From NCBI GenBank assembly GCA_016788165.1, contig JAEUTH010000022.1, positions 1-64,000 of the forward strand: a DNA stretch of 64,000 nucleotides. The letters are read 5' to 3'. Positions 56,933-63,020 of the stretch are shown here, in pieces (the first letter of the stretch is position 1; every line of letters begins with the position of its first letter). Source of the DNA: Bacteroidia bacterium. Lineage in GTDB: Bacteria; Bacteroidota; Bacteroidia; AKYH767-A; OLB10. The position numbers and the translations under genes were made by a program. The notes under the pieces were generated by a model that had not been told where the DNA came from, searched no databases, and saw only the letters and a program-made list of their open reading frames with translations.

Positions 56933-56985
56933 GCAATAAAGTTAGCAATGCAAATGGCAATTAAGCAATGCACAAATTTAAATAC

Positions 56986-58575
56986 ATGAGCGAAACGCTA
57001 ATTCAAACCAAAAGCATAGAGCAATCAATTGCACAGCAACAAACATTTATAACAGAAAACACATGGCTGCTCACGCCTGATTTTTTGCTACTGTTGGAAA
57101 AATTGCAGCAGTGCCTTGTTGCCGAACATCAGGCAATATTGCAATATGGCTTGCAACTATCGCAAGCGATGCAAAAAGATTTCGAACCGGTAGTACAACA
57201 ATTGAAGGATGATATAGAGGTTGCACCTTTTTTGTGCGCCCCAATACCAGAGTGGATGCATGGCCTTAAAACGCAAATTGTATGTCCGGCAAATCAAACA
57301 AGCCAATTGGTAAAACTGATTAATAATAATGAGCGCTATCAAAAACCCGACAGTTTGGTGCTTGATTTTGCATACACCATCAAACCTACATGGCAAGCAA
57401 TAGTAGATGGTTTAAAAAATGCTATCGAAATTGCAGGCGGCAATGCAAAATATACCCAACAAGGTTTTGCTTCGTTTAACCTGGATGCAACTAAAAGCAA
57501 TTTGCCACAAGTAATTTATAAGCCACGTACATGGCATCAGTTAGAAATGAATGTTATGGTTGGCGAAAGCCCTTTGCCGGCAATTATTTTTGATATAGCG
57601 GCTTTGGTGTATCATGCAAGTATTCATAATAACGAAAGGAAAATAGTTTTTGAAGTTGCATTGCAAAATGCTTATGAAGCGCAATGGCTGAACGAGCTTT
57701 TACATTTGTTGGAAACTGTAATGGACTATGACGCAAATACTTTAAAAGTTATTGCCGGCATAGGCAGTGTCAGCAGCATGTTGCACATACATGCCATTAC
57801 CGAACAATTGCAGGAAAGGATAGTTGGCATAGCTGCCGATTTTAAAGCAAAAGTTTTTAGCGATTTAAAACTACTTCGTAAAACGTCTAAAAATATAATC
57901 ACCGAACGTAAAAATATTAATCAAGCAGCACCGGGCTTGCAAGCATTGGCAGCAATGGTTAGCAACACTGCCCAACAATATAATGTATTGTCAATGGCCG
58001 GTTTAAGCGTAAATGCTGCCGGCAAGTTTGTTGATTATAAAGATGTTGATGTAGCGCATTATGAAGGTGAAATTGAGCATTTATTTGCATCGGGTTTTGA
58101 TGTGGTAACATTATCGCATCAGGAGTATATAAATTTTGCTTTGCAACAACATAAAGGCAAAGCAATTAGCAACGATACCTTATTGTGCAAACATGATGAC
58201 AAAATTTCGGAAAAGGGATTGCGCGATAATATCAGAACAGCCATAACTTATTTGCAGGCATGGAATCAAGGGTTGGGCTATGCAGTATTTGATAACCGAT
58301 GGGAAGATGTACAAACCTTTGAAATTATCAGAGCACAAATTTATCAATGGGTACGTAATTCAGTACATCTTACCGTAAGTAATGAGCGTATAAACAGCAG
58401 GGCTATAACAACCATCATTTTAGAAGAAGCCGAAAAATTAAAAGATGAAATAAACGAAGAGTTTGCCGGCAACCCCATATCAGAAATTCAAACCATAAGC
58501 AATACCTATACACAAGCTGCATTGGAGGTTGAGCAGTTGTTTTTAAACGATGAGCTTGCCGAGTTTTTTAATTAA
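56986..58575 (+). CDS. Malate-synthase-like protein lacking metal ligands (likely pseudoenzyme)
   Basis: 529 residues from ATG at 56986 (MSETLIQTKS). It aligns over its full length with malate synthase A, clearest at the C-terminus: LRDNIRTAITYLQAWNQGLG, then WEDVQTFEIIRAQIYQWV where the enzyme has MEDAATAEISRTSIWQW. The catalytic-base Asp (441) and the arginine in KPRTWHQLE (181) are kept. The Mg-binding Glu (LLIETLPA) is replaced by Gly260 (AGIGSVSS), the Mg-binding Asp (RWDYIFS) by Ala288 (FKAKVFS), and ADFEDS by LDFAYT. It should not bind Mg-glyoxylate normally. Isocitrate lyase is not nearby. A new activity or a regulatory role are both open. Confidence 0.78.
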   Translation: MSETLIQTKSIEQSIAQQQTFITENTWLLTPDFLLLLEKLQQCLVAEHQAILQYGLQLSQAMQKDFEPVVQQLKDDIEVAPFLCAPIPEWMHGLKTQIVCPANQTSQLVKLINNNERYQKPDSLVLDFAYTIKPTWQAIVDGLKNAIEIAGGNAKYTQQGFASFNLDATKSNLPQVIYKPRTWHQLEMNVMVGESPLPAIIFDIAALVYHASIHNNERKIVFEVALQNAYEAQWLNELLHLLETVMDYDANTLKVIAGIGSVSSMLHIHAITEQLQERIVGIAADFKAKVFSDLKLLRKTSKNIITERKNINQAAPGLQALAAMVSNTAQQYNVLSMAGLSVNAAGKFVDYKDVDVAHYEGEIEHLFASGFDVVTLSHQEYINFALQQHKGKAISNDTLLCKHDDKISEKGLRDNIRTAITYLQAWNQGLGYAVFDNRWEDVQTFEIIRAQIYQWVRNSVHLTVSNERINSRAITTIILEEAEKLKDEINEEFAGNPISEIQTISNTYTQAALEVEQLFLNDELAEFFN

Positions 58576-58610
58576 ATCAAAGGCTGCCCGATACAGGCAG
58601 CCTTTGATTT
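58571..58610 (+). terminator. Terminator after malate-synthase-like gene, repeat copy B
   Basis: A 15-bp perfect stem AAATCAAAGGCTGCC / GGCAGCCTTTGATTT (58574-58588 and 58596-58610) with loop CGATACA and terminal T-run. Its first bases overlap the stop codon. 58571-58604 equals 30431-30464. Confidence 0.92.
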
Positions 58611-58770: not shown

Positions 58771-61444
58771 ATGAAAAACAAAAACACCTACATTATGTTT
58801 TGCCTGATATGCATTCAAACAGCTACAACAGCAGCCAATAGCCGCACTCCCGCGGGGGGGGGTAAACGCCCAACAAGCCGAAATGGCATTAAACACTGCG
58901 CATACAGGCTTTATTAAAAATGCAGGGCAGGTGTATGATTATAATAAGCAAGTAACACCGGATGTTTTTTATAGTTTACATACCAAAGCAGTTTCAGTTT
59001 TTTTAACCCCCAAAGGACTTACTTATTCAATTGTTCAAAGAGAAATAGTAAATGACGAAACTGACTTAAAATTTAGTAACAAATCGAATTTTACAGTTAT
59101 TGATAAAAAAGTCGCTCGTGTAGATATGTGCTTGATTGATGCCAACATAAAGGCTGACAACATTATCGAACTTAGTTATATAAACGATGTTTTTGTAAAT
59201 TTTTATGGCAGCACATTGAATAGAGGCGCATTAAATCTCAAACAGTGTAATCAAATAATTATCAAAGAAGTTTACCCTCATATTGATTGGTTGCTTCATG
59301 TTTTGGAAGATGAATCATTTAAATATGATTTTATTGTGCGCCCAGGTGGCAATGTCTCAAGTATAAAATACAAGTTTATGGGAGCAAAAAATATAATTGC
59401 TAATAATTCGGCTGATGTCATTACCATAGAAACACCGTTAGGAAAATTAACAGAAGGCGCATTGTATTGCTTTACTTCGGGAAATGACAAACAGATTCCT
59501 GCTACCTATACATTAGTTGATGACGGTGTGAGTTTGAACATTTCAGTTTATGATAAATCAGAAACATTAATAATTGATCCGGCAGTTATGGTATTAACCT
59601 GGGCTACGTTTTATGGTGGAAGTTCGGCTATAGGCATTGGCGCTACATTTTGTCGCGCTATTAAAACCGATTCAGTCAACAACCGTGTTTATATTGTAGG
59701 TGATTGTTTTAGTAGCCCTTTTCCAAATATGAATAATAATGTTGCATATTACTTTAGTCCAGCTATTGGGGGTAGCAGTGCTGAAGCATTTATTACAGCC
59801 TTTGACTTAACAGGCAAACAAAAGTGGGCAACTTACTATTTAAGTACCGAGCCTGATGTAGCTTTTGATGTTGAAGTAGATAACAATGGAAATATTTATA
59901 TGGTAGGCAGCACAGAGTCGCACAATGCACCGGGTGGTATAAATTTCTTTACCACCCAGTATCAGGGTGGGTTTATTCAAACAACAAATAATGCAAAACC
60001 CATTGTGCCAGGAATTTATAGTTATCAGGAAGGATTTATTGTAAGGTTTAACGCATTAGGCCATTTACAATGGGCTACTTTATTGGGTGGCGACAGATAT
60101 GATGTGTTGCTTAGTGTAACATGCGATAAAAACAATAATATATATGTTTGTGGTGTAACTGATTCGCAATCAAAATTGCCCACCAATAAGCAAGGCAATG
60201 GATATTATGCCGCTTTACCCGGTACAATAGCACCGGTTGGATTTATAGCATCCTTTAAAAGCCAAACAGCAAAAAGCTGGTGCACTTATTATGGCACAGG
60301 GGCAACGGGTGCCGGTTGTTACGATATGGTTTGCGATGCTTCCAACAACTTATATGTGGTTGGTGTGATTGGTTCTTCAACTACCGGTTTCCCATTTTAT
60401 AATCCGGGCAATGGTGCTTTTTTTAGTAATGAAACAGGTAGTTATTTGGCTGTTTTTAGTCCAACCAGTAATCAGAAATGGTGTACAAGTTTTAAAGTTG
60501 GACAACAACTCAGGAGTGTTGATATTAATCATGCCGATGGTACCATTTTAGTAGGTGGATTTACCACAGCGGGTTCATTATTCCCCTGGCAAAATGTACC
60601 TGTACCTAATAGCACCTTTTTTGATAATACTTATAATGGGGGTGCTTTTGATGGTTTTGTGGCACTTATTAATCCGGATTATAAAATATATTATGCCTCC
60701 ATATTAGGCGGCAATGGCGATGAAATCATTCAAAAAGTAGCCATCAGTAATACCGGACGAATATTTGTGGCAGGTAATACTCACACAAACGGATTGCCTG
60801 CTTTTTCAAACTTTCCTACCATTACACCTCATGCAAATGCCTATTTTGAGTCATCTTTAGCCAACAACTTACCCAACGACATTTTTATTTCACATTTAGA
60901 AACGCGCAGTGCATTAACGCCACTAAAATTAACGTGGAGCACATTTTTTGGCGATGATGCAGGCCATGAATTTGTAAGGGACATTAACCTATTAGGTAAG
61001 TATCTTTTCTTAACAGGATGGACATTTTTAGAACCTGCCTCACCCAGTTTTCCATTAGTAAACGAAATAGGTGGCTTTTTACAACACAACAACAACCCTG
61101 TAGTTGCAGGCTTTAATCAAAGTGGTAGTAATGGATTGATATTAAAATTTATGAATGAAGAAGGGGCTAATTTAAGAGCGGGTAAAACCTTCGAAAATAA
61201 AATTTCAATATCCCCTAACCCAAGCCAAGCAGATATTGTTAACATAAACGCAAATTTTGAAATGAGAGGCCATGCACAAATTAGCATAAATGATTTAACG
61301 AGCAATTGTATTAAGCTTTATAATATAAACTTAAACGAGCAACCGTTACAAATAAATACTTCGGGTATAGAAACCGGATATTACTTGATAACAATTAGAA
61401 CCACAAATTTTTCGCAAAGTTTCCCATTTGTAAAAATTAATTAA
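58771..61444 (+). CDS. SBBP-repeat T9SS protein, out of frame at a G9 tract
   Basis: The signal-peptide start is ATG at 58771 (MKNKNTYIMFCLICIQTATTA). A run of nine G (58854-58862) follows, after which this frame ends at 58915-58917 (48 residues). With eight G the frame continues GGVNAQQAEMALNTAHTGFIKNAGQ and runs to 61444, about 890 residues. The body has a DUF7948-like N-terminus (SVFLTPKGLTYSIVQRE), SBBP propeller repeats (LTWATFYGGSSA, QKWATYYLS...DNNGNIYMVGSTES, LQWATLLGGDRYD, DKNNNIYVCGVTDS) and a T9SS sorting domain (ISISPNPSQADIV...GYYLITIRT). As given the protein is not made whole; internal initiation at 58883 would lack an export signal. Confidence 0.85.
58854..58862. repeat. Poly-G tract (G9), possible phase-variation switch
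   Basis: Nine consecutive G in AT-rich DNA, at codons 28-31 of the SBBP gene just past the signal peptide. Eight G restores the frame; nine, as here, gives a 48-residue product. No other G or C run of this length was noticed in the window. Confidence 0.85.
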
Positions 61445-61449: not shown

Positions 61450-61457
61450 TAATGGTT

Positions 61458-63020
61458 ATGCATAAAATATCAACTATTTTAATGATTTGCTTATGTTCTA
61501 TTATTTCTAATGCACAAAACAACTATGTAAAAATATTTTCTGACAATTATGGAATATTAGATATATGTGAGAATCCGGATTCAACTATTAGCATTTCTGG
61601 TATTGGATTTGACACAATCTATAACTCAGGCCAGCCATCCGATGAAGGTATTATTGGAGTGCAATTTGCAAAAGTAGATTGGTTTGGCAATTTAATTTAT
61701 CGCAGGGTGTATGGTTCGCTACGCGATGAAATGGCAGGCCATATTTGTCGTGTTGAAGAAAACGGTAATGTAAATTACATTATGTCGGGCCAAACCTGGA
61801 GCTTTTCTCCACCATCACCTGCACCTCCCAGTTACAGTCAGGCATATTTGGTAAAAGTAAATAGCAATGGTGATACACTTTGGACACGTGCCGTTGATTA
61901 TGGTGGTCATGTTAATTATCAGGATTTAACAATTGCAACCGATAGCAATTATGTGTATTGTGGCTCAAATGGCGCTGCCACATTAACCAAAGTAAATAAA
62001 ACCGATGGCGATACGCTATGGACGCGGCAATACATACAACCCATATCGGGCTCTATTGGCAGTACTGGATTACACCTTGCCCCCGATTCAGGATTTTATA
62101 TGGGTGGCCTTGTAATACCTCCGGCATATAACAAATCGTATTTTTTATTATTGAAAACCGATGTGGTTGGTATGCTTCAATGGTGCAAAGCTTATGGCAA
62201 CAACCTAAAACCCATGATTTGTTGGGACATGACTGTTTTATCAACGCAGGAAGTTTTATTGGTAGGCCAAACCGATGTAACTTTAAAATCAGATTTTGGG
62301 GTAATAAAACTTAATGCTCTGGGCGATACGCTTTGGTGTTATAAGTACAACTTTTTACCCGACCAATATGATGTTGGAGTTTCTGTTATGGAAGATACCG
62401 ATGGAAATTATTTAATATTAGGTTACACAAACGATAATACGGGTGCATCTAAGCTTTTAAAAATTGATACAGCAGGCAATGTACTTTGGGCTTGGCGGTA
62501 TAAGTGGAATGGCGGTCCGCATCTTAAAATAAAAAAAGCCTATGACGGTGGTTTTTGGATAGCATCAGGTGTATTGGTAAAATTAGATTCGGCAGGTTAT
62601 GGCTGCACAGCTTTAGCACATCCGGTTTCGCGCAAAGCATTTGCATTAAATATTGAAACCATAAACCTACAAATGGCAGGAGGAGCAGTTGCCTGCTTTC
62701 GCACACCTACCATTGAATTTACCGACACAGCATCGTTAACGGATTATTGCATTTATTTAGGACAAAATGATTTTACGTTTACAAATAAGTCAGTTCATAT
62801 GCACCCCAACCCGGCCAGCACACAGCTTACAGTGCAACTACCCAATGCAAACACGGGATATGTAACTGTTGCTATATATGATGTTATAGGCAACATATTG
62901 CAAGCACCTGCAAGAAAAGAAATAAGCAATGACAGTTTTACAGTTGATATAAACCATTTAAGCACAGGTATGTATTTTATAAAAGTAAACCACTGGGTGT
63001 TACGGTTTGTAAAACAGTAG
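61458..63020 (+). CDS. T9SS type A protein with propeller-like repeats
   Basis: 520 residues from ATG at 61458 (MHKISTILMICLCSIISNAQ), favoured by the Shine-Dalgarno spacing and signal peptide. The body has repeats with KVNSNGDTLWTRAVDYGG, KVNKTDGDTLWTRQY, KLNALGDTLWCYKYN and KIDTAGNVLWAWRYKW, the W-W propeller pattern seen in Bacteroidota secreted proteins. The last 75 residues (MHPNPASTQLTVQLPNAN...YFIKVNHWVLRFVKQ) are a T9SS sorting domain, nearly identical in DNA to the orphan domain at 30657-30873. It starts 13 bases after the SBBP gene and is probably co-transcribed with it. Function unknown. Confidence 0.87.
   Translation: MHKISTILMICLCSIISNAQNNYVKIFSDNYGILDICENPDSTISISGIGFDTIYNSGQPSDEGIIGVQFAKVDWFGNLIYRRVYGSLRDEMAGHICRVEENGNVNYIMSGQTWSFSPPSPAPPSYSQAYLVKVNSNGDTLWTRAVDYGGHVNYQDLTIATDSNYVYCGSNGAATLTKVNKTDGDTLWTRQYIQPISGSIGSTGLHLAPDSGFYMGGLVIPPAYNKSYFLLLKTDVVGMLQWCKAYGNNLKPMICWDMTVLSTQEVLLVGQTDVTLKSDFGVIKLNALGDTLWCYKYNFLPDQYDVGVSVMEDTDGNYLILGYTNDNTGASKLLKIDTAGNVLWAWRYKWNGGPHLKIKKAYDGGFWIASGVLVKLDSAGYGCTALAHPVSRKAFALNIETINLQMAGGAVACFRTPTIEFTDTASLTDYCIYLGQNDFTFTNKSVHMHPNPASTQLTVQLPNANTGYVTVAIYDVIGNILQAPARKEISNDSFTVDINHLSTGMYFIKVNHWVLRFVKQ
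62801..63017 (+). repeat. Sorting-domain DNA repeat, copy 2
   Basis: The second copy of the 217-base segment at 30657-30873, here in its full gene context. Differences cluster near the 5' part of the segment. Confidence 0.9.

Follow-up and report, generated by a model that had tools for sequence, protein, structure and literature searches.

Phase variation by changes in homopolymer length is long established, familiar from Campylobacter, Neisseria and Helicobacter, and in Bacteroidota DNA inversion is the main form of phase variation known. A review of phase variation cites Bacteroides for invertible DNA (PMC11868660), which, in the same phylum as the locus described here and as proposed for it, turns surface structures on and off at random, and which differs from it in acting by site-specific recombination, not by slippage. 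In a survey of 99 genomes, Orsi et al. (2010) treated homopolymer tracts close to gene starts, positions at which a frameshift does away with the product, and saw a 5' bias for poly-A/T of 5–8 bases that was absent for poly-G/C (PMC2831843); the tracts reported below share this placement and consequence, but the biased ones are G/C runs of 9–14 bases. A search of open-access papers turned up none that describes slipped-strand phase variation in type IX secretion cargo.

The locus lies in a window of 64 kb (the whole stretch of DNA that was analysed), with the following features.

58577–58608, plus strand: terminator-like hairpin 3' of the upstream gene, with a T run behind it (fold −23.7 kcal/mol, z −4.7)
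58771–58917, plus strand: signal-peptide start and 48-residue stub as assembled, including the stop codon; translation MKNKNTYIMFCLICIQTATTAANSRTPAGGGKRPTSRNGIKHCAYRLY, then stop
58854–58862, plus strand: G9 tract, candidate slipped-strand switch; sole G/C run of at least 7 bases in the window
58883–61444, plus strand: intact body with DUF7948, SBBP beta-propeller region and type IX secretion tail; 853 amino acids, stop-free
61452–63020, plus strand: next gene, tract-free, for a secreted protein with a type IX tail (Por_Secre_tail 4e-13) and delta-60-like repeats

Reading frame and domains of the focal gene

The initial annotation had singled out the G9 run, which was confirmed, and had stated that start and body are joined only by eight (or 5, 11) G and that nine stop translation after 48 residues, with which frame analysis agrees. 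From ATG 58771, where a signal-peptide-like N-terminus reads MKNKNTYIMFCLICIQTATTA..., the first G of the tract is reached after 83 bases; the body joins this frame, and with it the signal peptide, only at G counts of 2 mod 3 (5, 8, 11), the G9 allele (0 mod 3) has the signal peptide out of frame and gives the 48-residue stub, and at 1 mod 3 the frame runs into a TAA immediately 3' of the tract. The signal peptide was called by eye and with a hydrophobicity scan, not with a trained predictor. Behind G9, 859 codons are open in the body frame, of which the first ATG, at 58883, opens 853 residues ending at the stop at 61444, and this frame has no start codon 5' of 58883, which leaves the G9 allele without an exported full-length product. 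Of the window's 50 coding frames, none but that of the focal gene is clearly broken.

Pfam searches of the body gave DUF7948 (PF25778, 3e-38, 132 bits) and SBBP (PF06739, 2e-14, 53 bits), domains that make it an SBBP beta-propeller protein with DUF7948, and Por_Secre_tail (PF18962, 7e-7, 29.9 bits, above the cut-off of 27), a C-terminal sorting domain of the kind that type IX secretion cargo carries; TIGR04183 scored 18.3, below its cut-off of 23. An AlphaFold model of the body had a mean pLDDT of 67.5, and its best solved-structure matches were beta-propeller proteins. As is characteristic of slipped-strand phase-variable genes, the tract exceeds the length of about 7 bases from which a G/C run can slip, and by frame analysis it is sited so that unit changes turn the product on or off.

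Gene neighbourhood

The terminator-like hairpin would set the focal gene apart from the gene upstream as its own transcription unit, and the tract-free gene behind it, which begins 8 bases downstream, is probably cotranscribed with it, judging by the spacing. That upstream gene, at 56968–58575 of the window, encodes a protein resembling malate synthase whose domain scores are weak (62 and 55 bits), a divergent homologue that is possibly not an ordinary malate synthase. PADLOC gave no match that would place the locus in a defence system, tandem repeats in the window amounted to three short, weak arrays, and a sigma-70 promoter scan gave no excess of hits over shuffled sequence.

Tracts in the family and among homologues

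In the family to which the window belongs, 21/24 genomes had tracts of at least 9 bases. Of 68 tracts analysed, 28 lay at a gene's 5' end (10% of random window positions, P = 2e-11), and for 16 that gene also encoded a signal-peptide-like N-terminus (4.0% at random, P = 9e-9). The control, runs of 5–6 bases in the same loci, gave an odds ratio of 5.2 (P = 4e-4). All these P values are optimistic, because homologues and paralogues are not independent and were treated as if they were. The 49 host proteins included 16 with a type IX tail, 5 with SprB repeats, 4 PD40 propellers, 3 with PKD and 2 with DUF7948.

Tract length and presence differed among homologues. SprB-repeat genes with a tract just behind the start came from genera g6, g4, g7 and g1 (C9 and C6 in two paralogues of G005, C11 and C10 in G019, C9 in G006, C11 in G000), and close homologues in G003, G011 and G016 begin with ATGAAA and are tract-free. 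In a second family, from G004 and G006 (30% identity), the start codon runs straight into a G tract of 10, 10, 10, 12, 10 and 10 bases. A large PD40/type IX family carries G12, G12, G10 and G9 at a single mid-gene site; a paralogue has the same glycines there, encoded by interrupted codons. A gene of the focal gene's kind, with DUF7948 and SBBP, from another genus, g7 (G006), has C10 at its 5' end; apart from this gene, no long tract was found at the start of the DUF7948 homologues fetched, and the C7 in L056 lies inside a reading frame, not at a gene start. In 60 relatives the search for close focal orthologues reached no more than about 35% identity, and GTDB representatives gave one weak match.

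Class-wide census of start-proximal tracts

Across the class a layout recurs in which ATGAAA is followed by a short AT-rich segment, in many cases with TTTA or TTA as its last bases, then by C9 to C14, a signal peptide and a long body; it is also found in other families of the class, in subtilases, GH16-like enzymes, and beta-helix and coiled-coil-tailed proteins; in all, start-proximal tracts in secreted-protein genes were seen in at least nine families. The focal tract departs from this commoner module in having G on the sense strand and in lying behind the hydrophobic core, not before it, and at G9 it is at the short end of the range of lengths. A search for ATGA...C9 against the reversed pattern gave no large excess overall in the class, so the pattern is not diagnostic unless a signal peptide and a long body lie behind it. 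The longest start-proximal tract seen, a C23 near 126071–126093 of L289 (G303, contig C2), follows an ATG by ten-odd bases and precedes a signal-peptide-like stretch. Contig C95 of G009 opens with 84 C (bases 1–84; G on the other strand), most likely an assembly or sequencing artefact, and this run was excluded.

For the frame census, non-redundant start-proximal poly-C tracts were taken from nine families (loci including L129, L130, L175, L176, L217, L219, L221, L275–L284, L287 and L007), and 22/22 were out of frame with a secreted-protein body that was itself open; one phase accounted for 13 of them and the other for 9. Neutral random switching predicts that one third should be ON, almost none were, and 22/22 OFF has a probability of about 1e-4, so neutral switching fails to explain the uniform OFF state. 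Either OFF is the selected default, with rare ON cells, or the product is made through polymerase or ribosome slippage. A broader proposal, which we consider doubtful, is that start-proximal poly-C/poly-G is a class-wide default-OFF control module for secreted proteins of Bacteroidia, whose offset would be kept on purpose and in which slippage in replication, transcription or translation would yield rare expressing cells or low, leaky expression.

The improbability of the census under random DNA switching, with every body open, speaks for an explanation by slippage at the level of expression alone, in which the DNA would stay out of frame and slipping RNA polymerase or ribosomes would make a fraction of full-length product in every cell, a throttle and not a heritable switch. 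Homopolymers of at least 8 bases are known slippage sites (PMC3711429), and in Buchnera in-frame mRNAs are reported to arise by polymerase slippage on poly-A tracts (PMC2831843). Known slippery tracts are mostly A/T runs, however, and programmed slippage usually holds one phase, whereas both phases occur here (13 and 9) and the tract lengths of homologues differ. With both out-of-frame phases and many lengths, DNA slippage fits better than programmed frameshifting, and we regard slippage confined to expression as unlikely.

Long G/C runs in the same genome

The 3.34-Mb genome contains 84 G/C runs of at least 6 bases, 10 of at least 8, and 6 of at least 9 (up to 14). Long G/C runs are suppressed in this genome, as the count of only 84 of at least 6 bases indicates; if runs decayed at the GG/CC rate of the window (about 0.22 per base), these 84 would predict about 1 run of at least 9 and 0.05 of at least 11, against 6 and 4 observed. 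Under a plain first-order Markov model 6.5 runs of at least 9 are expected, close to the 6 found, which makes a single G9 unremarkable by length, and length alone was dropped as evidence. What is remarkable about the G9 is its position and its company, of which position is the stronger signal.

Five of the six runs of at least 9 bases are inside exported-protein genes, and the sixth is upstream of one. Runs of C11, C11 and C14 lie 7–14 bases behind an ATG and directly before signal peptides, another G9 lies within a second type IX gene and throws it out of frame, and all tracts within coding genes are out of frame as assembled. A C11 at 7955–7965 of L067, which precedes a signal-peptide gene on the other strand by about 95 bases, is possibly a promoter or leader tract and not a frame switch. 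Two tract genes, L059:5147–6701 (contig C2) and L061:6662–7281 (contig C27), have one further in-frame TAA each besides the out-of-frame tract, and decay is therefore real for some tract genes. Both sit on short contigs with a common repeated SprB-like 5' end. The genome encodes about 150 type IX proteins.

These additional nonsense codons and the broken focal frame itself would fit an ordinary homopolymer frameshift that had recently inactivated the focal gene and set it on the way to a pseudogene. The initial annotation had held the lesion-free body against decay; freedom from lesions was borne out by the 859 open codons, but intactness by itself is compatible with a recent inactivation. A body of this length with no further lesion nevertheless tells against it, and recent inactivation would leave unexplained the tracts of up to 14 bases at the starts of exported-protein genes in 38% GC DNA and their recurrence at homologous sites, and we take it to be very unlikely.

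Mid-gene tracts and sequencing error

Mid-gene tracts of at least 9 bases were in frame in 12/16 cases, and L170, one of the four exceptions, is actually start-proximal; the difference from start-proximal tracts, with 0/22 in frame, was strong (Fisher P = 7e-7). Error is blind to gene position, and given this contrast it is not the general cause of the OFF frames. That the true focal run is eight G and the gene constitutively intact has only a slight chance of being right: long G runs are prone to sequencing and assembly error, but 22/22 start-proximal tracts were out of frame against 4/16 mid-gene ones, independent assemblies of many genera are alike, the window has no other obvious frame breaks, and an eight-G ON allele would still be a tract-bearing gene. 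Homopolymer error, named earlier as the main alternative, thus fails as a general cause where frames depend on position, and a one-off error at the focal site is possible.

Phase variation as the preferred reading

With a probability of roughly three in four, the G9 tract is a slipped-strand phase-variation contingency locus assembled in its OFF form. Slipped-strand mispairing in replication would alter the G run by one base at a time, and a count of 2 mod 3 would join the signal peptide to the body; the ON product, a beta-propeller protein of nearly 900 residues, would be exported via Sec and then carried to the surface by the type IX system. With any other count the translated product would be 31 or 48 residues long, and the cell would lack the surface protein. 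Reversible changes of this kind may serve cell-surface heterogeneity, for example against phages or for attachment. The phase-variation layout proposed in the initial annotation gains support from the tracts of 9–14 bases elsewhere in the genome, from the start-proximal tracts of the class, from the length differences among homologues and from the tract in the SBBP/DUF7948 gene of genus g7, and it is from these comparisons that we infer switching.

If the tracts do switch, the choice of type IX proteins on display could be randomised within one organism, the type IX adhesins and enzymes of uncultured Bacteroidota would need to be read as population mixtures, and automated annotation would be throwing out functional surface proteins as truncated.

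Comparison with known systems

In the poly-G/poly-C loci of Campylobacter jejuni, Neisseria and Helicobacter (PMC4965091, PMC5084427, PMC2823697), as here, a long G/C homopolymer lies in a surface-protein gene, one-base changes shift the frame, and several loci occur per genome; the present tracts differ in belonging to Bacteroidota and to type IX secreted proteins (SBBP propellers, SprB repeats, subtilase, GH16), and in assembled states that are almost uniformly OFF. The autotransporter NalP/MspA of Neisseria meningitidis (PMC3723659) is likewise a large exported protein switched by a homopolymer; it takes another secretion route, and its phase-variable expression was examined experimentally, whereas that of the focal gene is inferred from frame and comparison.
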